From positions 1 to 23,808 of IMG/VR virus record IMGVR_UViG_3300020473_001313: DNA of 23,808 bases; one strand, written 5' to 3'. This DNA is from a virus. How positions within the stretch are numbered: the stretch's first letter is position 1; each line of letters opens with the position of its first letter. The notes beneath the pieces are model-generated. The model was not told where the DNA came from. It saw only the letters and a list, made by a program, of their open reading frames with translations, and ran no database searches. The position numbers and the translations under genes are program-made. Positions 972-22,106 of the stretch are shown piece after piece.

Positions 972-1247
972 CTAAGACTTTTGTTTGGGGGCAGTCTTTT
1001 TGCTCCCAAGCAATTTCTCTCTTTCACGATATTCGATCACAGTATTAACTTTAGACTTCAGTCTTATAATATCATTATCCAACATACGAATTCTATCAAT
1101 CAAAGCAATCAAAACTGTAGATGCTTCGCCTAGTTTTGGTTTTATTTCTTTTGTCATAAAATTATACACAAAGAATATAAAATATCCCATGGCTACTGAT
1201 GCCAATGTAGGAAAGCCATATTGTTCAACTAAGGCAACAATATCCAT
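972..1247 (-). CDS. Holin-like small membrane protein, paralogue B
   Basis: This 91-residue protein has one N-terminal membrane segment (about residues 10-30, with YGFPTLASVAMGYFIFFVYN) followed by a charged helical, probably coiled-coil tail with RIRMLDNDIIRLKSKVN (about 52-68) and a lysine-rich end. The layout matches small holin-like or BhlA-like phage proteins, though the function is not shown by sequence alone. The start at 1247 has AGGAGAGA just upstream on the minus strand and overlaps the stop of the preceding gene as TAATG, so the two are translationally coupled. It resembles its neighbour at 1247-1528 in architecture and in the R-I-R-x-(L/M)-(D/N)-N-D pattern, which indicates tandem duplication. 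Confidence 0.72.
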   Translation of the reverse strand: MDIVALVEQYGFPTLASVAMGYFIFFVYNFMTKEIKPKLGEASTVLIALIDRIRMLDNDIIRLKSKVNTVIEYREREKLLGSKKTAPKQKS

Positions 1248-1528
1248 TAATCTCTCCTAGCATCTTTCTTGCCATCTGCTCTTGCAATTCTTTCTTCATC
1301 TGGTTTAAGTTCTAGAGCATGACTGATTAACAAATCAAGTTTCATCATATCATTGTTCATCGTCCTGATCCTATTGTCCAATTGTGTAATGATAGCATGA
1401 AGTGTTCCTACTTGACCTATCACAGAGCCAAGTATGTATTTCAAAATGATATAAATGAATACACCCATTACTGCTGAGGAGGCGATTGGCAATCCAAATT
1501 CTGCCAATAATGTAAAGAATGTATCCAT
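1247..1528 (-). CDS. Holin-like small membrane protein, paralogue A
   Basis: The 93-residue product has a single membrane segment near residues 11-34 (FGLPIASSAVMGVFIYIILK), then a helical tail with LDNRIRTMNNDMMKLDLLI (about 50-68) and a very charged end. It is the first gene of the minus-strand pair and is clearly related in plan to the second: (Y/F)G(F/L)P near the N-terminus, a serine/alanine/glycine-rich membrane helix, and an RIR...ND helix. Such pairs in phages can act as holin and antiholin, but that is inference. The promoter is probably the minus half of the inverted repeat at 1537-1553; the ATG lies 8 bases from the TAAATA element. Confidence 0.72.
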   Translation of the reverse strand: MDTFFTLLAEFGLPIASSAVMGVFIYIILKYILGSVIGQVGTLHAIITQLDNRIRTMNNDMMKLDLLISHALELKPDEERIARADGKKDARRD

Positions 1529-2484: not shown

Positions 2485-2492
2485 AATAAATA
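2485..2492 (+). promoter_or_regulatory. Late-like promoter element before csgF
   Basis: AATAAATA at 2485-2492 contains the TAAATA core and ends 5 bases before the ATG at 2498, the same geometry as at 1548 and 10683. No good -35 box is present. It favours the second ATG (2498) over the one at 2492, which overlaps the element. Confidence 0.4.
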
Positions 2493-2497
2493 TGTGT

Positions 2498-2968
2498 ATG
2501 ATAACGAGAATCTTATTAATATTCGTATGGCTAGGATTGACTCCTGCAATGGCTGAAAGTTTGTCTTTTAGTTTTGGGAATCCTGCATTCAGTGGTGAAG
2601 GATATAGTTCACACGTTCTATCTATTGAACAATTACAATATTCACGTGGACAAGACATAGAAGCGGATGCAAAATCTGCTCGTAGTGCCGCTGAACGAGC
2701 AGAAAAAAATACAACAATTAATAAATTTATTGCCAATGTTGAATCTAGAATCTACGCAAATTTGTCAAAGCAGTTGGTAGATAATATGTTTGGCACGACT
2801 TGTGACAGTGAAACAACAACCTGTCCTACGTCTGGCACCGCAAATGTTGAAGGTTCTGTAATTTATTGGGTGAAAGATGCCACTTCTGGCAACATTACAT
2901 TGACTGTCACTGCAACTGACGGAGCAGTAACAACACTGACAGTTCCTGTGGGAGACTTTGTATTCTAA
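2498..2968 (+). CDS. csgF: CsgF-like curli assembly factor
   Basis: CsgF is the small secreted partner that binds the CsgG outer-membrane pore and, in Enterobacteria, plugs its neck with an N-terminal peptide and helps nucleate the curli fibre. This 156-residue product has a signal peptide (MITRILLIFVWLGLTPAMA). The mature protein begins ESLSFSFGNPAFSGEG, matching the CsgF N-terminus pattern (hydrophobic-polar strand, F-x-NP-x-F-x-G). A helical middle and a beta C-terminus with a GSVIYWV segment and an LTVTATDGAVTTLTVPVGDF end match the family. A C-x6-C cysteine pair and an alanine/glutamate-rich helix (about 50-70) are less typical. It overlaps csgG (TAATG at 2968), as expected for partners. 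Confidence 0.88.
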   Translation: MITRILLIFVWLGLTPAMAESLSFSFGNPAFSGEGYSSHVLSIEQLQYSRGQDIEADAKSARSAAERAEKNTTINKFIANVESRIYANLSKQLVDNMFGTTCDSETTTCPTSGTANVEGSVIYWVKDATSGNITLTVTATDGAVTTLTVPVGDFVF

Positions 2969-3798
2969 TGAAAATACTTGCAACCATATTAGCATTGTGT
3001 TGGATAACTGGCTGTGCAACAATGCAACCAGAAAATGTAAAAATAGGGCAGGAGCCATTTGTTACTGCATCCACCACTTCAGTTTTATTGGCACAGATTC
3101 CGCCATTAGATCAACCAAAGATTACTATTGCAGTATATTCTTTTCCAGATCTAACAGGACAACGCAAACCTAATTCAAAATTTTCTTTGCTATCGACAGC
3201 AGTTCCACAAGGATCTGAAGTATGGGTAATACAAGCATTGAAAACTGTGGGCAATGGTGAATGGTTTCAAGTAGTTGAAAGAGGAGGCTTAGACAACCTA
3301 GTGAAAGAAAGGCAACTTATAAGATCAACAAGAGAATTGTATGATGGTGATGATGGCGCAGGGAATGTGCTGAAGCCTATGCTTTTTGCTGGACTAATTG
3401 TCGAAGGTGGCATTGTTGGATATGAGGCAAACACTCAATCAGGTGGTGATGGTGCCAGATACTTTGGCATAGGTGCACATGAAGAATACAGAGTTGACCA
3501 AGTAACTGTATCAATGAGACTGGTAGCAGTACAAACAGGCGAAGTGCTCCTAACACAAGAAGCAACTAAAACCATAGCAAGTATGAAAACTGGTGTAGAT
3601 GCATTTAGATTCTTAGATATGAGTACAAAAGCCTTTGAATTAGAAAGCGGAGTGGCAGTAAATGAACCAGTTATGTACGCAGTTAGATCTGCCATAGAAT
3701 ATGCTTTGTTCGAACTCATTATAGCGGGTGAAAATGATGGCTTCTGGAAGTTTAAATACAACAAACATGTGGGAAATATAGATGAAGTTTTTAACTAA
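2968..3798 (+). CDS. csgG: CsgG curli outer-membrane secretion channel
   Basis: CsgG is a lipoprotein that forms a nonameric outer-membrane channel for curli subunits. The 276-residue product has a lipoprotein signal with lipobox ITGC (Cys16), so the mature chain of 261 residues is almost the same length as Escherichia coli CsgG. Family hallmarks are all present: IAVYSFPDLTGQ (54-65), STAVPQ (76-81), VERGGLDNLVKERQLIR (103-119), GYEANTQSGGDGARYFGIG (151-169) and VNEPVMYAVRSAIE (231-244). The constriction-loop region between GQ and STAVPQ (KPNSKFSL, 67-74) differs from the KPYPASNF of the bacterial protein, so the narrow part of the pore is probably altered. It is coupled to csgF and overlaps the curlin-repeat gene by 17 bases. 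Confidence 0.96.
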   Translation: MKILATILALCWITGCATMQPENVKIGQEPFVTASTTSVLLAQIPPLDQPKITIAVYSFPDLTGQRKPNSKFSLLSTAVPQGSEVWVIQALKTVGNGEWFQVVERGGLDNLVKERQLIRSTRELYDGDDGAGNVLKPMLFAGLIVEGGIVGYEANTQSGGDGARYFGIGAHEEYRVDQVTVSMRLVAVQTGEVLLTQEATKTIASMKTGVDAFRFLDMSTKAFELESGVAVNEPVMYAVRSAIEYALFELIIAGENDGFWKFKYNKHVGNIDEVFN

Positions 3799-4492
3799 TT
3801 TATTAACGATAGCATTCTTTGGAATGTTCTTTTTGTTTGGAATGATGTATGCCGCATCATCCAATGATATCTATGTGACTCAAAGTGGTGGTGGTTCATT
3901 TACATTTGATGTTTTACAAGATGGACAAAACAACACCATAGGTAATTCAACCACTGCATCTACGAACACTGGTGCAACACATAACCTAAATATTGATCAG
4001 GTTGGTAATTCAAACGTATTAACATATCAAGTAAACGGTGCAAGTTTTACAGGTGTGTTTAATACAACTGGTAATTCAAACGACATAGACTTTAATTGTG
4101 ATACAGGTGGATCAAATTCATCTTGTGGTACAGTTAATTCAAATATTACATTCACTGGTAATTCAAATGATATCGACATAGACGTTGGATTGACTGCGGC
4201 GGCAACTGGTTTAGATTTAGATGTAACCGGTGCTTCTGGTTCTGACAGTAACGTGATTGCGGCAACAATTGATGGTACATCAGCAATAATGAACTTGTCA
4301 CTCAACGGTGATACTAACAACTATCTAATTGATATTGATGGCAACGGTGATGTAAATGGACACACTTTAATACACAGCCATACAGGCGGTATTGCAGATG
4401 TGGACATTGTTCAAAGTGGTGTGTATGATAACTATATCGCTCTTACAACTGCTGGTGACAACCATAACATTGACATAATTCAAAGAGACTAA
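3782..4492 (+). CDS. Curlin-repeat protein, candidate curli subunit (CsgA/CsgB-like)
   Basis: The 236-residue product has a hydrophobic signal peptide (residues about 1-25) and then imperfect curlin-type repeats built on G-N/D-S-N-x-(V/I/L)-x-(V/I)-x-Q/D. Clear units include GNSNVLTYQVNG, GNSNDIDFNCDTGG, GNSNDIDIDVG, and the last two, VDIVQSGVYDNYIAL and NHNIDIIQRD. Curlin repeats form stacked strand-loop-strand units in amyloid fibres exported through CsgG. Glutamine positions are often replaced by aspartate, and one C-x7-C pair occurs, so the repeats are degenerate. It overlaps csgG by 17 bases and is the obvious secretion substrate. The related DNA units (GGTAATTCAAA) are coding repeats. 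Confidence 0.85.
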   Translation: MKFLTNLLTIAFFGMFFLFGMMYAASSNDIYVTQSGGGSFTFDVLQDGQNNTIGNSTTASTNTGATHNLNIDQVGNSNVLTYQVNGASFTGVFNTTGNSNDIDFNCDTGGSNSSCGTVNSNITFTGNSNDIDIDVGLTAAATGLDLDVTGASGSDSNVIAATIDGTSAIMNLSLNGDTNNYLIDIDGNGDVNGHTLIHSHTGGIADVDIVQSGVYDNYIALTTAGDNHNIDIIQRD

Positions 4493-4504
4493 TTTAATTA
4501 AATA
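4470..4504 (+). promoter_or_regulatory. Possible promoter before the FecR gene
   Basis: TAAATA at 4499-4504 ends 5 bases before the ATG at 4510. TTGACA at 4470-4475 with TTTAAT at 4493-4498 (17-base spacing) is an alternative sigma70 reading, but the TTGACA lies inside the coding repeat for NIDIIQ and may be coincidental. Either way the mRNA would have almost no leader. Confidence 0.35.
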
Positions 4505-4509
4505 TTGCT

Positions 4510-5619
4510 ATGAAGAGCATTTTTGTAATATTTTTTCTTATGATTCCTAGTCTTTTACATGCAAATTCTATAGGCGATGTGATCATGCATGAAGGGTCCG
4601 GTGTAATAGAACGTAAGGCAAATGGAGAAGAAGTTACGACACAAACGGAACTTGATGTGTTTTCATTTGATACTGTCAAAACTGGCAACGGCAAAACAGC
4701 AATTGAATTTTTAGATGCCACTAGAGTTGATGTTACACAACACAGTAAATTAACAATAGATGATTTTGTGTATGATCCTAACACCAGCACAGGAAAATTA
4801 TCATTAAAAGCATCACTAGGCACAGTCCGTTATGCTTCAGGACAAATTGCTAAAACTAGTCCAACAAATGTAACAATATCAACACCAACAGCAACAATAG
4901 GTGTACGAGGAACAGACTTCTCAATGACAATAGATGAAGTTGGATCTTCTACAATAATTTTATTACCATCATGCAATACAAATGGAATGTGTTATGTGGG
5001 CGAGATATCTGTCGAGTCAGATGCAGGGTTTGTAATAATGAATCAAGCCTTCCAAGCAACTGTGGTTGATACTGTGGCCTCAATACCAATGAAGCCTGTT
5101 ATATTAGAACTTGATGAAGATTTAATTGGCAACTTGATGATTATTTCTAAACCAACAGAAATACAAGAACAACAAGAAGCAGAAGCATACAATCAGGTTG
5201 CATCAGCATTGGACATAGACTTTTTACAATTTGATAACTTGGAGATAGATTATCTAGAAGAGGAGGAAGATACATGGGCAACTGGACTTGACATTGATTT
5301 CTTAGAACAAAACTTTCTTGTTGATGTATTGGTACAAATTAATAAAGAATTAACAAAAGCAATGAAACAGGCAGGCCTTGATCGAAAAGAAACAAAAACT
5401 GACGGAATACAATTAGGTAAAGATCCAGAGACTGGTATTATTATTTTAGACGAAGATCCACAATGGGTCTATTCACGTGAGGGTGCATCAAACTTTTTTG
5501 AATTACGTTTAGACAAAGAACAAGGTTACATTATAAATTTTGTACAAGGCGACTTTGAAGTTGTTGATTATTATTTAGGAGATGGGGACAGTGAAATTTT
5601 TATCATTCAGTCTAATTAG
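4510..5619 (+). CDS. Exported FecR-domain protein
   Basis: The 369-residue product has a clean signal peptide (MKSIFVIFFLMIPSLLHA) and a FecR domain over residues about 20-145: GDV...GSGVIERKANGEE, DTVKTGNGKTAIEFLDATRV, LTIDDFVYDP, GTVRYASG and ISTPTATIGVRGTDFSMTI are the usual landmarks. Unlike FecR of iron uptake there is no cytoplasmic anti-sigma part and no membrane helix, so it is a soluble periplasmic or surface protein. The C-terminal half is very acidic with repeated LDIDFL motifs (about 235-275), possibly a protein- or metal-binding segment. FecR-domain proteins are often found near CHASE2 cyclases in bacteria, and a CHASE2 cyclase lies downstream here. Its exact role is unknown; a sensor or cell-surface ligand role is inferred. 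Confidence 0.85.
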   Translation: MKSIFVIFFLMIPSLLHANSIGDVIMHEGSGVIERKANGEEVTTQTELDVFSFDTVKTGNGKTAIEFLDATRVDVTQHSKLTIDDFVYDPNTSTGKLSLKASLGTVRYASGQIAKTSPTNVTISTPTATIGVRGTDFSMTIDEVGSSTIILLPSCNTNGMCYVGEISVESDAGFVIMNQAFQATVVDTVASIPMKPVILELDEDLIGNLMIISKPTEIQEQQEAEAYNQVASALDIDFLQFDNLEIDYLEEEEDTWATGLDIDFLEQNFLVDVLVQINKELTKAMKQAGLDRKETKTDGIQLGKDPETGIIILDEDPQWVYSREGASNFFELRLDKEQGYIINFVQGDFEVVDYYLGDGDSEIFIIQSN

Positions 5620-6979
5620 TCTTTTGGTCCTTATATTCATGTATGTGCCTAACAAAGCAAATGCAGGATCACTCAACTGGACTGCTTACTCAATTTCACA
5701 TTATGCACCATATGTTGAATCATCTTGTTTCAATAATTATTCTTATCTATCAACCTGTAACAACACAAACTGGGCCTATGTTAATTCAACTGCGATTGCA
5801 TCAGGCACACTGACAAGTATAAATCAAAACTGGAACAGTGGCAGTATCATACCAGATGGAAGCACAAACATAGGATCTAATTCTAGGATGCTAGTAATCA
5901 CAGGATATTGGCAACATCCGGGAACTGCAGGTCAAACATCAACAGTTTATTTTGCCGGACGTAACGATGATGGACTGATCGTAAACATCAATAACACCGC
6001 AGTAATATCTGATTGGGCACAACAAGGTCCAACATATTGGAATTCATATGGCTCATTTACAGGTGTAGGTGGTCAATGGTATCCTATTGTGATCAATTGG
6101 TATGAATGGGGTGGCTCAGCCAATATGGATATTCATTATAGAATAGATGGTAGTAATGGCATTGGTACAACCAGTGGGTGGCTTGACCACAATTCAAATA
6201 TGTTCTCATCTACAGAGCCTAGTGTATCAATCACAGCAGGACAAACTACAATTCTTAACAATGCAATGGGTGTTACAGGTAATGGAGTAAAATTGTCTAT
6301 AGATGGCGATAACAACACCGTAAATATTGAACAAGAAGGTGAAGATAATTTTATTGTTGGCACTGACTGGACATCAAATGCCACGATCAATGGGGATTCA
6401 AACACAGTGACAATCGACCAAGGCAATGTTACAACGTCAGGCTCGCACAGTGACAACAATGGTATTGCAATGGCTATTACTGGTAACAGTAACACTCTTA
6501 CAATAAGTCAAGGAGATGCAAACAATGATAGAGGTGAACACAGAATATGGACAGACATTACAGGTAATTCAAACAATGTTAATATTCTACAAAAAGATCA
6601 TGGCGGTAATTGCTGTCACAGTGAACATTTTCTATCTTTAGATTTGGATGCATCAAGTAACACAATAAACTTGACACAAAAAAATGATGGCAATAAAGTT
6701 ATGTTTTTAGATATTAATAACAATAGCAACACAATTGATATAATGCAACAAAACATAGGAGAACATTATTTAGATTTAACTCTAAGTTCAGGATCTTATG
6801 CACATGACATTGACATTACACAATCAGGTAGTGCCGATAAGTCGGCAAGAATAACTTTGGGTGGTTATTCATATAACTTTGATTTGATACAACAAGGATC
6901 AAGCAGTCAGTCTTATTCAGTTGACAGCACCTGTGGTAGTGCCAGTGGTTGCACACTATCAACGACACAAGGAAACTAA
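5591..6979 (+). CDS. PA14-like domain fused to curlin repeats (secreted adhesin candidate)
   Basis: A signal peptide (about residues 1-26, ending NKANA) is followed by a PA14/GLEYA-like beta domain (about 30-200): TVYFAGRNDDGLIVNINNTA, then YWNSYGSFTGVGGQWYPIVI and a GSANMDIHYRIDG strand, where PA14 domains have DDG and GG-A motifs. From about residue 225 to the end come roughly nine curlin-type units such as GDNNTVNIEQEG, GNSNTLTISQGD, GNSNNVNILQKD, SSNTINLTQKN and NSNTIDIMQQN. So a possible glycan-binding head is joined to an amyloid-type repeat tail. GTG at 5591 is preferred over ATG at 5582: AGGAG at 5577-5581 is 9 bases from the GTG but abuts the ATG. It overlaps the FecR gene by 29 bases. 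Confidence 0.8.
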   Translation: MKFLSFSLISLLVLIFMYVPNKANAGSLNWTAYSISHYAPYVESSCFNNYSYLSTCNNTNWAYVNSTAIASGTLTSINQNWNSGSIIPDGSTNIGSNSRMLVITGYWQHPGTAGQTSTVYFAGRNDDGLIVNINNTAVISDWAQQGPTYWNSYGSFTGVGGQWYPIVINWYEWGGSANMDIHYRIDGSNGIGTTSGWLDHNSNMFSSTEPSVSITAGQTTILNNAMGVTGNGVKLSIDGDNNTVNIEQEGEDNFIVGTDWTSNATINGDSNTVTIDQGNVTTSGSHSDNNGIAMAITGNSNTLTISQGDANNDRGEHRIWTDITGNSNNVNILQKDHGGNCCHSEHFLSLDLDASSNTINLTQKNDGNKVMFLDINNNSNTIDIMQQNIGEHYLDLTLSSGSYAHDIDITQSGSADKSARITLGGYSYNFDLIQQGSSSQSYSVDSTCGSASGCTLSTTQGN

Positions 6980-7209
6980 TGTTCGAAAAAACAAAAGCAC
7001 GTTGGAAAAAACTAATGACAACAGATAACATTATCGATGCTTCTGTTGATGTGTTAATTCTTGTGTTTGATGTGCTGTCTAGTCCTATATTGATTGCGAT
7101 GCGTATCTTTAGATTTTTGTTTAACAAGTTTATAGTTGATCATATTAAAAGTTTCATTAAATACATTGTACACAAATTTGATAAAAATGGAAATAGAAAC
7201 AAACAGTAG
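6979..7209 (+). CDS. Small hydrophobic, basic protein of the curli locus
   Basis: The 76-residue product has a basic start (MFEKTKARWKKLM), a long hydrophobic stretch (about 26-50, VDVLILVFDVLSSPILIAM) and a basic amphipathic tail. It probably sits on or in the inner membrane. The start is set by TAATG overlap with the PA14-curlin gene and AAGGA at 969-973 of the 6 kb line (6969-6973), 5 bases upstream. No family recognised. Its placement between the surface proteins and the cyclase suggests that it belongs to this unit. Confidence 0.65.
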   Translation: MFEKTKARWKKLMTTDNIIDASVDVLILVFDVLSSPILIAMRIFRFLFNKFIVDHIKSFIKYIVHKFDKNGNRNKQ

Positions 7210-7351
7210 AACATTCACATGTGATGGTTTAGTAGCACCAGATATGCATCCATCCGAGGGCCATCCTAAAGTATATCTGACAATGAAAGATGAAGAAACT
7301 GAACATGTGTGTCCTTATTGCAGTACAGTCTTTGTGCTAAAAAATGAATAA
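7187..7351 (+). CDS. zf-CHCC zinc-finger protein (NDUFS6-like)
   Basis: The 54-residue product carries a C-x(n)-H-x(n)-C-x2-C site: FTCDG, GHPKVYLTM and HVCPYCSTVFVL. This is the signature of the small zf-CHCC family, present as a stand-alone protein in alphaproteobacteria and related to the mitochondrial complex I subunit NDUFS6. ATG 7187 is chosen because the family starts just before the first cysteine; the longer frame from 7136 overlaps the previous gene more. It overlaps its neighbours by 23 and 8 bases. It looks recently taken from a host-type genome. Its role is unknown. Confidence 0.85.
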   Translation: MEIETNSRTFTCDGLVAPDMHPSEGHPKVYLTMKDEETEHVCPYCSTVFVLKNE

Positions 7352-9383
7352 AATAATTACACACTGGGCCATGGCTCTAATTACTCTGGTGGTGCTTACA
7401 TTTGTAGGTCTTGAAGATCCCTACGTCAAACAAATTCTTAGATTAAAATCATTTGATCTGTATCAACAATATGAAGACAAAAACTTTTCACAAGATATTG
7501 GAGTCGTAACTATTGACGAAGCAAGTATAGAAAAATATGGACAGTGGCCGTGGAAACGTGATGTGTTAGTAGACATTATTATCAAACTGAGACAGTCGCA
7601 GGTTGGCATTATTGTGATTCCTATTTTGTTTGCAGAGCCAGATAGAATGGGAGGAGATGAAGTATTTGCACAAACTATTCAACAAATGGGTGTGGTGATT
7701 GCACAGGTAGGTACAACACAAATTAATAAAAATTCTGTGCCACGTGGAGTGGCAAAGATAGGAGATCCTTTACCTTATCTTTTTGAATGGCCAGGCATGC
7801 TAGGACCAATACCTGAACTAGGACAGATAGCCGATGGAGTAGGTGTGATTAATACTGCACCTGAAATAGATGGCGTTGTGAGAAGAATACCTTTGATAAT
7901 GAGAGTTGGAGAAGAAACTTATCCTGCTATGGCACTAGAAACAATCCGTGTTGCAACTGGTGACCCGAGTTATCAAATCAAAGCAGGTCCTGCCGGCGTA
8001 CAGGCTGTAAGGGTGCCTGGCTTCAGCACAATAGAAACTGATGCTCATGCTAGGATTTGGTTAAGATGGAACAAAGAATATGAAACTATTTCAGCATCAT
8101 CGGATGACTTTTCTGCTTTTGCTGGACGCACAGTTGTCCTAGGTGTCACTGCTGAAGGACTGGCTAGTGTCATTGCAACACCTACAGGAGAACAATATGA
8201 CTATGTGTTATCTGCATCAACACTTCAAACAGTGATAGATGGGAAGCAATTGACTCGCTATGACATAAGTCATATGTTTGAATTACTAATTGCACTTGCA
8301 GTAGGGGTTATTGTTGTTTTAATGGCTCGATTTACGCCATATTGGGCAGTTGGAGTGTCAATGCTTATCCTTTACGTTGCAGGCGTATATGGCGCTTTTT
8401 ATCTGTTCAAACAACATCTTATGCTGGTAGATGTCAGTTGGATATTAATTACAATTACATTTGTAGGTATGCATTCTATATTCAACAGATTTGTTTTGGA
8501 ATTTAGATTAAAACAACAGATTAGAAAACAGTTTGAACATTACCTTGCTCCTAGTATGGTTGCACAGTTACAAAAAAATCCAAGTTTGTTAAAACTTGGC
8601 GGTGACACTCGCAGACTTACAATGTTGTTTTCAGATCTACGGGGATTTACATCTTTGAGTGAAAAATACAAGGACACACCACAAGAACTTACAAACATAT
8701 TGAACAGGTACATGACTAGAATGTTAAACATTGTTACGGCCAATGAAGGCACAGTTGATAAGTTGATAGGCGATGCTGTCATGGCATTTTGGAATGCTCC
8801 ACTTGATGTTAAAGAACAAGAAGTGAAAGCAGTGAAAACAGCAATACAGATGGAGCACGAATTAAAATTGTTGAACAATGAATTGAAACGTGAAAAGTTA
8901 CCACAACTTGCAATCGGAATAGGTATCAACACAGGAGATGTTGTGGTTGGCAACATGGGATCTGACACAAGATTCGACTACACCGTTATCGGTGACGCAG
9001 TTAATCTAGCGGCAAGACTAGAAGGCCAATCCAAAACCTATGGTGTTTTAGTTGTGTTCGGAGAAGAAACAAGAGATGCATTCCCAGATAGTGAACTGAA
9101 TAAATGTGTGCCTATAGATAAGATCAGAGTCAAAGGTAAAAATGAACCAATCGATATCTATACCTACGATGAAAATCCAAAAGTACATCAAGTTATGAAT
9201 GCCATGCTGACAGCATATCGACAAGCAGATTGGAAAACTGCAACTGCAAGATTAAAAGATATGAGTGTGTTGTGGCCTAAATACCAAACACTTATCAATC
9301 TTTACCTAGAAAGAATAAAACATTACAAGAAAAATCCACCAAACAAAGATTGGGATGGTAGTTTTACTGCATTGACAAAATAA
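7344..9383 (+). CDS. CHASE2-domain class III adenylate/guanylate cyclase
   Basis: The 679-residue product has an N-terminal membrane helix (about 7-22), an extracytoplasmic CHASE2 sensor domain (about 25-305; IGVVTIDEASIEKYGQWPWK at 52-71 is typical), three membrane helices (about 311-328, 332-355, 361-379) and a cytoplasmic class III cyclase domain (about 420-605). Catalytic residues are all present: metal-binding Asp431 (FSDLRGFT) and Asp477 (DKLIGDAVMAF), base-selecting Lys473 and Thr547, and transition-state Asn554 and Arg558 (GDAVNLAARLE). The Lys/Thr pair favours ATP, so cAMP is the expected product. The start at 7344 overlaps the zinc-finger gene by 8 bases. A C-terminal helical tail (about 612-679) follows. 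A sensor cyclase in a phage is unusual; the bound signal is unknown. Confidence 0.93.
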   Translation: MNKIITHWAMALITLVVLTFVGLEDPYVKQILRLKSFDLYQQYEDKNFSQDIGVVTIDEASIEKYGQWPWKRDVLVDIIIKLRQSQVGIIVIPILFAEPDRMGGDEVFAQTIQQMGVVIAQVGTTQINKNSVPRGVAKIGDPLPYLFEWPGMLGPIPELGQIADGVGVINTAPEIDGVVRRIPLIMRVGEETYPAMALETIRVATGDPSYQIKAGPAGVQAVRVPGFSTIETDAHARIWLRWNKEYETISASSDDFSAFAGRTVVLGVTAEGLASVIATPTGEQYDYVLSASTLQTVIDGKQLTRYDISHMFELLIALAVGVIVVLMARFTPYWAVGVSMLILYVAGVYGAFYLFKQHLMLVDVSWILITITFVGMHSIFNRFVLEFRLKQQIRKQFEHYLAPSMVAQLQKNPSLLKLGGDTRRLTMLFSDLRGFTSLSEKYKDTPQELTNILNRYMTRMLNIVTANEGTVDKLIGDAVMAFWNAPLDVKEQEVKAVKTAIQMEHELKLLNNELKREKLPQLAIGIGINTGDVVVGNMGSDTRFDYTVIGDAVNLAARLEGQSKTYGVLVVFGEETRDAFPDSELNKCVPIDKIRVKGKNEPIDIYTYDENPKVHQVMNAMLTAYRQADWKTATARLKDMSVLWPKYQTLINLYLERIKHYKKNPPNKDWDGSFTALTK

Positions 9384-13163: not shown

Positions 13164-13754
13164 ATGAGTTTAGTTCCAGTAGTAATAGAGCAGACAAGCA
13201 AAGGTGAGAGAAGTTATGATATATTCTCCCGTATGCTCAAAGATAGAATAATTTTTCTTACAGGTGCAATTGATGACAATGTGGCGGCAGTAGTGTCTGC
13301 ACAACTTTTATTCTTAGAGTCACAAGATTCTACAAAAGACATAATGTTTTATATAAATTCTCCAGGGGGATATGTAAGTTCAGGTTTGGCCATGTATGAC
13401 ACAATGCAATTTGTGAAGTGTGATATACAGACACTCTGTATTGGTAGAGCGGCCAGTGCCGGATCATTATTGCTCATGGCTGGTACACCAGGTAAAAGAT
13501 CTATACTACCACATGCAAAAGTTATGATTCATCAACCATCCGGAGGCATGTCAGGACAAGCAACAGATATTGAGATACATGCTAAAGAAATATTGCATAC
13601 AAAAGAAATATTGAATGGATTGTATGTAAAACATTGTGGACAACCTATGGATGTGATACAGCCTGCCATGGAACGGGACAACTTTATGACTGCTGAACAA
13701 GCCAAAGAATTTGGTTTGGTAGATCAAATTGTTGAACAACGACCAGACAACTAA
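13164..13754 (+). CDS. clpP: ClpP-type serine protease
   Basis: The 196-residue product has the ClpP barrel and the full Ser-His-Asp triad: Ser98 in [14 protein letters not shown], His123 in [13 protein letters not shown] and Asp172 in [30 protein letters not shown] (63-80) and the N-terminal axial-loop region ([20 protein letters not shown]) are typical. ClpP forms a 14-mer that needs a Clp ATPase partner; none is encoded in this window, so it would rely on host ClpX or ClpA. Phage ClpP could redirect host proteolysis or process virion proteins. It has its own promoter and heads the coupled run to 17565. Confidence 0.95.
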
Positions 13755-20668: not shown

Positions 20669-21199
20669 ATGAAGAAGTTAATCATAATGTTATCAGGTCT
20701 TGTATTTTTGACGGCTTGTGCCGGCACAGGATTTGTTAATGACAACATAAAAAAACCAAAGTTGACTTTATCAACAGGTACCCAAGCACCTAAATGGTTC
20801 ATGGACTATCCAAAAGATGGTAAAGGCACAATCTATGCAGTAGCAACAGGACAAAGTGATGACCTACAACTTGCTATTGATAAAGCGATGTTGGATGCAA
20901 AGGTATTGTTAGCAGACAAGATGCAAAATAGAGTGAATGCAGATATTAAAACTGTTATCACTGACAATGGCGTCGGTGGTGTTAGCACCAATGTTGAACA
21001 ACAAACCACAAAGATAGAACAAAGTGTTATTGACAAAAATGACATGAGTGGCTATGTAGTGCAAAACAGTATTGTGGTAGCAGAAGGCACAGGGTACAGA
21101 TCATTTGTTCTCTTGTCATATGATACTGAAAACTGGTCACCACCGGTCAAAACTGTTAAGGTTGACCTAAGTGGCATTGCCAGTAGTGTCGTAGAATAA
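20669..21199 (+). CDS. LPP20-type lipoprotein
   Basis: The 176-residue product has a lipoprotein signal peptide with lipobox LTAC (Cys17). The body, APKWFMDYPKDGKGTIYAVA (residues about 41-60), then SDDLQLAIDKAMLDAKVLLA and an IEQSVIDKNDMSGYVVQNSI segment, matches the LPP20/FlgP-like lipoprotein pattern (proline-W, A-V-A-T-G, helix of A-x-x-x-A-K). Such proteins sit in the outer membrane and are linked to flagellar or other envelope assemblies. Ribosome site GAGG precedes the ATG. It is coupled to the small gene that follows and to a DUF4384 protein. Confidence 0.8.
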   Translation: MKKLIIMLSGLVFLTACAGTGFVNDNIKKPKLTLSTGTQAPKWFMDYPKDGKGTIYAVATGQSDDLQLAIDKAMLDAKVLLADKMQNRVNADIKTVITDNGVGGVSTNVEQQTTKIEQSVIDKNDMSGYVVQNSIVVAEGTGYRSFVLLSYDTENWSPPVKTVKVDLSGIASSVVE

Positions 21200-21324
21200 T
21201 GACTAAGACTATACTTGTTTTTGCAGTTGGCATGATTGTAGCATGGAACTGGGTCGATCAACCTATATGGGTGGCTCAGTCTCTGCAGATGTCTGTGGAC
21301 TTTTTAACAAACATCACACGATGA
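21199..21324 (+). CDS. 41-residue membrane protein
   Basis: A short frame opens at ATG 21199, overlapping the lipoprotein stop as TAATG, and closes at TGA 21322-21324, overlapping the next ATG as ATGA. The product (MTKTILVFAVGMIVAWNWVD and a short tail) has one hydrophobic helix (about 5-18). Double stop-start coupling is strong evidence that it is translated and not noise. It is too short to assign; probably an inner-membrane accessory protein of the same cassette. Confidence 0.7.
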   Translation: MTKTILVFAVGMIVAWNWVDQPIWVAQSLQMSVDFLTNITR

Positions 21325-22106
21325 TCAAACGATTGTTAGTAGCAATATTAGGATTTTATATTTTACTAATATTTCTTCCAACCACAGATCTTTACGCAAA
21401 AACTGTTGAAGGCACAGGCTATCATTACTTTGGCCCAGACATCACTGAAAATAGTTCCTGTCTGTTTGCAAAACTAAAAGCAGAAGAAGATGCCATAATA
21501 AAAGGTTCTGGTGAAACAGTCTCAGCACAAGATTGGAAAGTCTGCAACGATCCTGAGTGTGTGCTTACTGAATACCGCTGGACAATGTTGAATGGAATGA
21601 TTCTCCGTTCTACTTTGTTAGAAAAAACTATAACAGAATTTTTTGGACAACAGGTTTGCAAAGTCACCATATTAGCAGAAGTTATGCCAGTTGAAAAAGA
21701 TCCTTCTTTCACTGCTACCATTCATCTTAACACAAATTTATACAATGTAGGAGACAAATTAATTATTAATGTTGATCCTTCACAAAAGATGTATGTGTAT
21801 GTGTTCAGTTGGAATAGTGCAGATTTTGAAACTGTGAATGTACACAGAATATTTCCAAACAAATATGAAACTGCACAGATCAAAAAACAAACAATTATTC
21901 CAAGTAGTGACTATGAATTGGTCATGACATTGCCAAATAATTACACAGACTCTAAACCTATTGATGAATATTTGTTTGTGGTAATGAGCAAAAAGAAAAT
22001 GTCTTTTGCACAAGGATACAAGTTTCCATCATTCAATCAACTATTGTTAGAACTTGATCCTTATGAAACAAATGTAGAAATAGTAGGAATAACCATTGCA
22101 AAATAA
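21321..22106 (+). CDS. Exported DUF4384-type protein
   Basis: The start at 21321 is chosen for its signal peptide (MIKRLLVAILGFYILLIFLP, to about residue 26) and the ATGA overlap. The 261-residue product has an N-terminal helical/beta domain with two or more cysteines (about 30-125) and a C-terminal DUF4384-like beta domain (about 133-225) with YNVGDKLIINVDPSQ, MYVYVFSW and IFPNKYE. In bacteria DUF4384 proteins often occur with LPP20 lipoproteins and CsgG-like proteins, and are thought to act in envelope or flagellar assembly. The neighbouring lipoprotein fits that. The function in a phage is unknown. Confidence 0.75.
   Translation: MIKRLLVAILGFYILLIFLPTTDLYAKTVEGTGYHYFGPDITENSSCLFAKLKAEEDAIIKGSGETVSAQDWKVCNDPECVLTEYRWTMLNGMILRSTLLEKTITEFFGQQVCKVTILAEVMPVEKDPSFTATIHLNTNLYNVGDKLIINVDPSQKMYVYVFSWNSADFETVNVHRIFPNKYETAQIKKQTIIPSSDYELVMTLPNNYTDSKPIDEYLFVVMSKKKMSFAQGYKFPSFNQLLLELDPYETNVEIVGITIAK

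Follow-up and report, generated by a model that had tools for sequence, protein, structure and literature searches.

A phage curli locus with a headed, exchangeable curlin that may serve as a surface adhesin

Curli (type VIII secretion) genes of phages have been described before: csgF and csgG with unnamed neighbours (PMC7029224, 2020); csgGF of Methylophilales phage Melnitz, for which csgA and csgB were stated to be missing and a role in lysis was proposed (PMC9004378, 2022); and a full set, including FecR and adenylate cyclase genes and lacking CsgE, in podo- and myophages (PMC9599517, 2022). Here we analyse such a module in the IMG/VR record IMGVR_UViG_3300020473_001313, the whole of which (23,808 bases) is referred to as the window, and compare it with related loci, designated by L-numbers. 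Open reading frame (ORF) calling places csgF, csgG, curlin 1, FecR, curlin 2 and CHASE2 adenylate cyclase genes in this order at 2492-9383, all on the + strand; the ORFs, Pfam matches and homologues confirm this gene run, which an earlier interpretation made without database searches (the sequence-only reading) had proposed. That reading also took the complete system to be new, a claim contradicted by PMC7029224, PMC9599517 and the records of Pelagibacter phage HTVC008M and Melnitz: the complete phage curli module is already published. What is new, judging by the literature and sequence collections that we searched, is a modular, exchangeable, headed curlin 2; the main text of PMC7029224 and of PMC9599517 contains no mention of PA14- or ThuA-like heads, of curlin 2 exchange or of the CHASE2 sensor.

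The window shares with the viral type VIII secretion module of PMC9599517 (and, in part, PMC7029224) the csgF-csgG-curlin-FecR-curlin-cyclase order and the lack of CsgC, CsgD and CsgE. Its genes correspond one to one in order to gp014-gp019 of HTVC008M (CsgG and FecR each 65% identical) and to gp99-gp104 of Melnitz (each 54% identical), and the six-gene order is kept in both phages and in nearly all complete contigs; pore, own curlin-type substrates and cyclase do form one conserved module, as had been suggested. Contrary to PMC9004378, both the Melnitz record and our search show a curlin-repeat gene at each of the two expected positions. With csgBAC-csgDEFG of E. coli the module has in common the CsgG pore, CsgF and curlin-repeat substrates; it differs in that CsgE was not found and CsgC and CsgD were not seen, in that FecR and CHASE2 cyclase genes lie inside the operon, and in that one curlin bears a foreign head.

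Head of curlin 2 and its exchange among phages

Homologues, profiles and fold comparison indicate that curlin 2 (5582..6979, + strand) is modular, with a signal peptide, a PA14 lectin-like head at residues about 28-211 (5663..6214, + strand) and a curlin-repeat stem from residue ~216 (6227..6979, + strand). Pfam PA14 matches five of eight curlin 2 homologues (best 2.7e-6), and a profile of the head matches PDB sequences of the RsgI3 PA14 domain (3.9e-13) and an RTX adhesin PA14 domain (8.8e-5). Foldseek with an AlphaFold model retrieves Flo1, Flo5, MpPA14 and Epa1 (E about 1e-4, probability 1.00), a fold match that supports, rather than proves, the PA14 identification. PA14 lectins hold their sugar-binding Ca2+ with two consecutive Asp residues (DcisD; PMC8092209); the corresponding pair, Asp129-Asp130 in curlin 2, is invariant in 10 heads, which also share several invariant Trp and Gly residues and a mean column identity of 63%. 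MpPA14 of the Marinomonas RTX adhesin (PMC8092209) and yeast Flo1 and Flo5 have the same beta-sandwich head with an Asp-Asp pair; their heads are carried by RTX or wall-anchored adhesins, whereas the predicted PA14 lectin of the window sits on a phage-encoded curlin stem. In the protein, the head follows the signal peptide and precedes the first curlin repeat; headless forms have no sequence at this place. A PA14 head (40% identity) is likewise present on HTVC008M curlin 2, unrecognised in the HTVC008M record; Melnitz curlin 2, unlike the headed form of the window, is headless (341 residues). Among the alphaproteobacterial and other csg loci compared, a small sample, no bacterial curlin carries a PA14 or ThuA head.

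The extent of this variation was assessed in 117 viral loci, 21 genome-collection loci and two isolates, from which we obtained 72 distinct operons whose gene at the curlin 2 position is complete. A PA14-like head with a curlin stem occurs in 13 of these (the window and HTVC008M included); a ThuA-like head of about 200 residues is joined in frame in 24; 19, among them Melnitz, have a headless curlin 2 of 241-341 residues; and the remaining 16 have a short form of 109-121 residues. The name ThuA is tentative, with a Pfam ThuA match (4.7e-4) in one member and no significant PDB fold match. Close relatives differ in this gene: L106 and L111 are 100% identical in csgF, 97% in csgG, 99% in curlin 1 and 99% in FecR, yet one curlin 2 is ThuA-headed and the other headless; and L011 and L012 differ likewise at 94-97% identity. 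Exchange also separates the two parts of the protein: L010 and L063 have heads that are 89% identical and stems that are 40% identical, and L076 and L095 have stems that are 87% identical and unrelated heads. Mapped onto a 72-row FecR tree, the four curlin 2 states require at least 23 changes, against a least possible number of 3. Judged from these comparisons, heads and stems of curlin 2 recombine with each other. The pattern resembles the swapping of tail-fibre tips. One would expect it in a recognition part exposed at the surface, not in a pore.

Secretion core, curlin repeats and sensor genes

The secretion core is well supported. The csgF homologue (2492..2968, + strand; 158 residues, with a signal peptide) matches Pfam CsgF at 2.9e-12 (47.3 bits; cut-off 25.8) and phrog_35372 at 2.4e-61, and is 74% identical to the HTVC008M protein over 131 residues. 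The csgG homologue (2968..3798, + strand; 276 residues), encoding a predicted outer-membrane pore lipoprotein 65% identical to that of HTVC008M, matches Pfam CsgG at 2.8e-49 (167.7 bits; cut-off 20.8) and has a lipobox (TGC) whose Cys16 is invariant in the csgG alignment. Adjoining module genes share 1 to 38 nucleotides in most cases, and curlin 1 and FecR are separated by 17 nucleotides. Longer csgG (~295-318 codons) and curlin 1 (364-387) genes characterise the L098-L119 subgroup, which may correspond to the podophage type already published.

For the window's own proteins, curlin is the least secure of the assignments, and it becomes firm via their homologues. Curlin 1 (3782..4492, + strand; 236 residues), the constant curlin-repeat protein, has a signal peptide followed by an NDIYVTQ repeat and gives no Pfam match in the window; Curlin_rpt is matched by 9 of the 16 members of its alignment (best 8.6e-6), and its five strand-Q motifs compare with a shuffle mean of 0.54 (0/5000 shuffles had as many). 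Curlin 2 of the window scores 15.8 bits, below the Curlin_rpt cut-off of 20.7, and its homologues match at 5e-8 to 7.5e-8. A profile of the curlin 2 stem matches the solved curlins 8c50 (1.2e-9) and 8enq (0.003). The stem contains eight strand-Q motifs spaced 23-30 residues apart (shuffle mean 0.8; again 0/5000 as many) and ends with a C-terminal Cys pair; its AlphaFold2 model forms beta-hairpins, with a predicted local distance difference test score (pLDDT) mostly of 73-87 from about residue 320 and lower, mixed values before that.

The secreted FecR-domain protein (4510..5619, + strand; 369 residues) matches Pfam FecR at 5.7e-9 and phrog_37870 at 3.7e-146, and the domain is found in all 16 members of its alignment. 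A possible curlin repeat in the FecR tail (N-x-I-x-I-x-Q) was rejected; profile comparison was no better than for other FecR segments. An extra 247-residue protein with a signal-peptide-like start is encoded in the fecR/curlin 2 interval of L076 (5739-6482), L091 (9022-9765) and L089 (1059-1802). In the window, two small genes on the + strand lie between curlin 2 and the cyclase: a small ORF (6949..7209) with homologues in L005, L006, L007, L009 and L047, and a gene for a small zinc-finger-like Cys/His protein (7136..7351; HPKVYLTM...CPYC) with homologues in five loci, including L040/L144, L044 and L094/L143.

The last gene of the module (7344..9383, + strand) encodes a class III adenylate cyclase of 679 residues with a CHASE2 sensor (Pfam CHASE2 1.6e-39; Guanylate_cyc 5.5e-21). 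All 49 homologues retain its metal-binding Asp431 and Asp477, substrate-binding Lys473 and transition-state Arg558, and 46 of the 49 retain Asn554; from knowledge of class III cyclases, the enzyme is probably active and makes cyclic AMP (cAMP). The position of the cyclase gene is not fixed: in L010 (6546-8585) it is encoded on the opposite strand, upstream of csgF.

In at least 17 alphaproteobacterial genomes (two match lists compared by eye), a FecR homologue is found ~0.1-3.2 kb from a homologue of the CHASE2 cyclase, and in a Polaromonas genome the two genes overlap or abut on a contig separate from the csg genes. In Sinorhizobium, the FecR gene SMc02177 is near the CHASE2 cyclase gene cyaD1 (PMC5498481), an extracytoplasmic FecR-domain protein being encoded near a CHASE2 cyclase, as here. 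Because such homologues neighbour each other in bacterial genomes, we think it probable that FecR and the CHASE2 cyclase are a sensor unit of bacterial origin that became attached to the curli operon, rather than an iron regulator. In the loci compared, the bacterial pairs stand apart from csg genes, whereas those of the window lie within the curli operon with a curlin gene between them.

Phage background and companion genes

Two small membrane proteins accompany the module: protein 2 (972..1247, - strand; 91 residues; phrog_18771 7.8e-31), with one N-terminal transmembrane stretch followed by a likely coiled coil, and its paralogue, protein 1 (1247..1528, - strand; 93 residues; phrog_18771 1.2e-32; paralogue BLAST 8.9e-13), which is 63% identical to HTVC008M gp011. 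A related pair (~92 residues each, phrog_18771) occurs in 107 loci, and in 86 of these it immediately precedes csgF on the same strand; it is inverted in the window, L005, L006 and L010, and downstream in L007 and L009. Several L098-L119 operons have another small ORF in its place. The genes preceding the module were called histidine kinases in PMC9599517, and by position the small membrane pair is probably what was meant. The pair shows no Pfam domain above cut-off and hence no histidine-kinase signature; as it occupies the kinase position without a kinase domain, that annotation is probably wrong.

To the sequence-only reading the contig looked like a T4-type phage, and this could not be substantiated: no T4 core gene was recognised in the window, nor was an HTVC008M-like capsid or terminase gene. 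No copy of the T4 late promoter TATAAATA is present in the window, where 2.4 would be expected by chance, and the ligase and ClpP genes proved uninformative for a T4-type assignment. A match to Salmonella phage S.Kent was discarded, the matching sequence being a 1.5 kb, low-coverage, unverified contig that is likely contamination. By gene content the closest relatives are L006 and L010 (contigs of 50 and 115 kb), which share with the window genes outside the module (ClpP at 69-70% identity, and others). L010 also carries ribonucleotide reductase and tail-spike-like genes. Neither HTVC008M-like capsid nor terminase was found in these two contigs, both of which are fragments; the capsid is present in other module loci (L017, L055, L071, L108). 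The module in the window therefore probably belongs to a further phage lineage, as far as fragmentary contigs can tell. Origin from a bacterial chromosome, which the sequence-only reading had named as grounds for withdrawing its proposal, is unlikely, because the whole window is one virus record and its genes outside the module match phage families. Full phage-type modules in L122, L123 and L125 (Flavobacteriaceae and Rhodobacteraceae bins) are likely misbinned phage DNA.

The ClpP-like protease gene of the window (13164-13754) gives a nearly full-length Pfam match (5.8e-79) and is 69-70% identical to the L006 and L010 genes; exoribonuclease (9406), radical SAM (15530) and ferredoxin (19218) genes are near it. 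At 20669-22106 an LPP20-like lipoprotein gene is followed by a DUF4384 gene. Melnitz relatives of the two lie close together (L003 4628-6050), LPP20-like relatives also occur in HTVC008M and Mosig, and the pair may be a second envelope-related unit of such phages.

Possible roles of the module

From gene content, domains and exchange, we infer that the viral type VIII secretion module may well allow the infected cell to display an amyloid-anchored, exchangeable adhesin, and we hold this to be moderately probable. CsgG and CsgF would export curlin 1 and curlin 2 from the infected cell; curlin 1 would form or nucleate a fibre; the curlin 2 stem would join the fibre and leave the head shown outside; the head would bind sugars on cells or particles, a binding that could serve to attach, to capture siblings or to mask against other phages; and the FecR protein and the CHASE2 cyclase would together signal the periplasmic state to the cytoplasm as cAMP. 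A wider version is more tentative: on several phage backbones, a cassette-exchange adhesin, with a curlin stem exported by the phage's own CsgG/CsgF and a lectin or different head that is swapped among phages in the manner of tail-fibre tips, coupled to a FecR/CHASE2 cAMP sensor, could make infected cells stick to chosen partners.

Several points weigh against the exchangeable adhesin. The head region of the model is of low confidence (pLDDT mostly 35-70), so that the PA14 identification leans mainly on sequence; a head of roughly 190 residues would need to pass CsgG unfolded and to fold outside; the Sinorhizobium FecR gene is not required for signal perception (PMC5498481); and Melnitz-infected cells showed no clumping (PMC9004378), although Melnitz curlin 2 is headless. 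Most operons are from metagenomic contigs, in which assembly chimeras could mimic a few swaps; chimeras hardly account for all of them, nor for the fact that the isolates HTVC008M and Melnitz differ. Finally, CsgE was found neither in the window, where the sequence-only reading had already not seen it, nor in 12 related phage records (E. coli control positive), and without it gating and export efficiency are unexplained. Its absence does not bar membership in type VIII secretion, because viral and alphaproteobacterial modules likewise lack CsgE (PMC9599517).

In the first alternative, which we regard as unlikely, CsgG and CsgF form a gated channel in the outer membrane, or an analogue of a pinholin, that times lysis and aids the release of progeny, with the curlins as remnants; the proposal was based on a CsgGF model and on where the genes lie in Melnitz (PMC9004378), and the two one-transmembrane small proteins that accompany the module could be holin-like. 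That study says that Melnitz has no csgA or csgB, yet two curlin-repeat genes are there; complete phage operons retain curlin 1, and nearly all of them retain curlin 2, which would not be expected of remnants; and a pore-only role does not fit repeated exchange of heads. The sequence-only reading had listed fibres that tether cells or virions, a pore for lysis or leakage, and a block to superinfection: the lectin-like, exchangeable head strengthens the first, and lysis or leakage via the pore alone loses support. The exchangeable adhesin is thus better supported than a bare lysis pore.

Superinfection exclusion, in which exported curlins coat the infected cell, hide or occupy its receptors and keep rival phages out, seems to us similarly improbable; it was suggested in PMC9599517, and heads that vary would be of use in an arms race between competing phages, but PA14 lectins of adhesins mediate attachment (PMC8092209). 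It is still less probable that the curlin 2 variants are non-adhesive, reflecting domains that are shuffled freely in a minor component of the fibre at a recombination hotspot, with heads kept by drift: the short and headless forms (16 and 19 of 72 operons) indicate that the head is dispensable, but the conservation of the PA14 heads noted above, invariant Asp-Asp pair included, and the in-frame ThuA-like heads of 24 operons speak against drift. Nutrient or cofactor uptake via an ungated CsgG pore (PMC7029224, PMC9599517) is very improbable, for although the known plug CsgE was not found and FecR domains are known from iron-siderophore signalling, this role leaves the conserved curlins and exchangeable heads unexplained, and the FecR homologues identified have CHASE2 cyclases as their partners.

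Our results bear on two published claims: that Melnitz is without curlin subunits and, probably, that histidine kinases begin the module. Published guesses at what abundant marine phages use curli genes for include sibling capture, a lysis pore, uptake and superinfection defence; the lectin-like head on curlin 2 and the repeated swapping of this head suggest a part in surface recognition.

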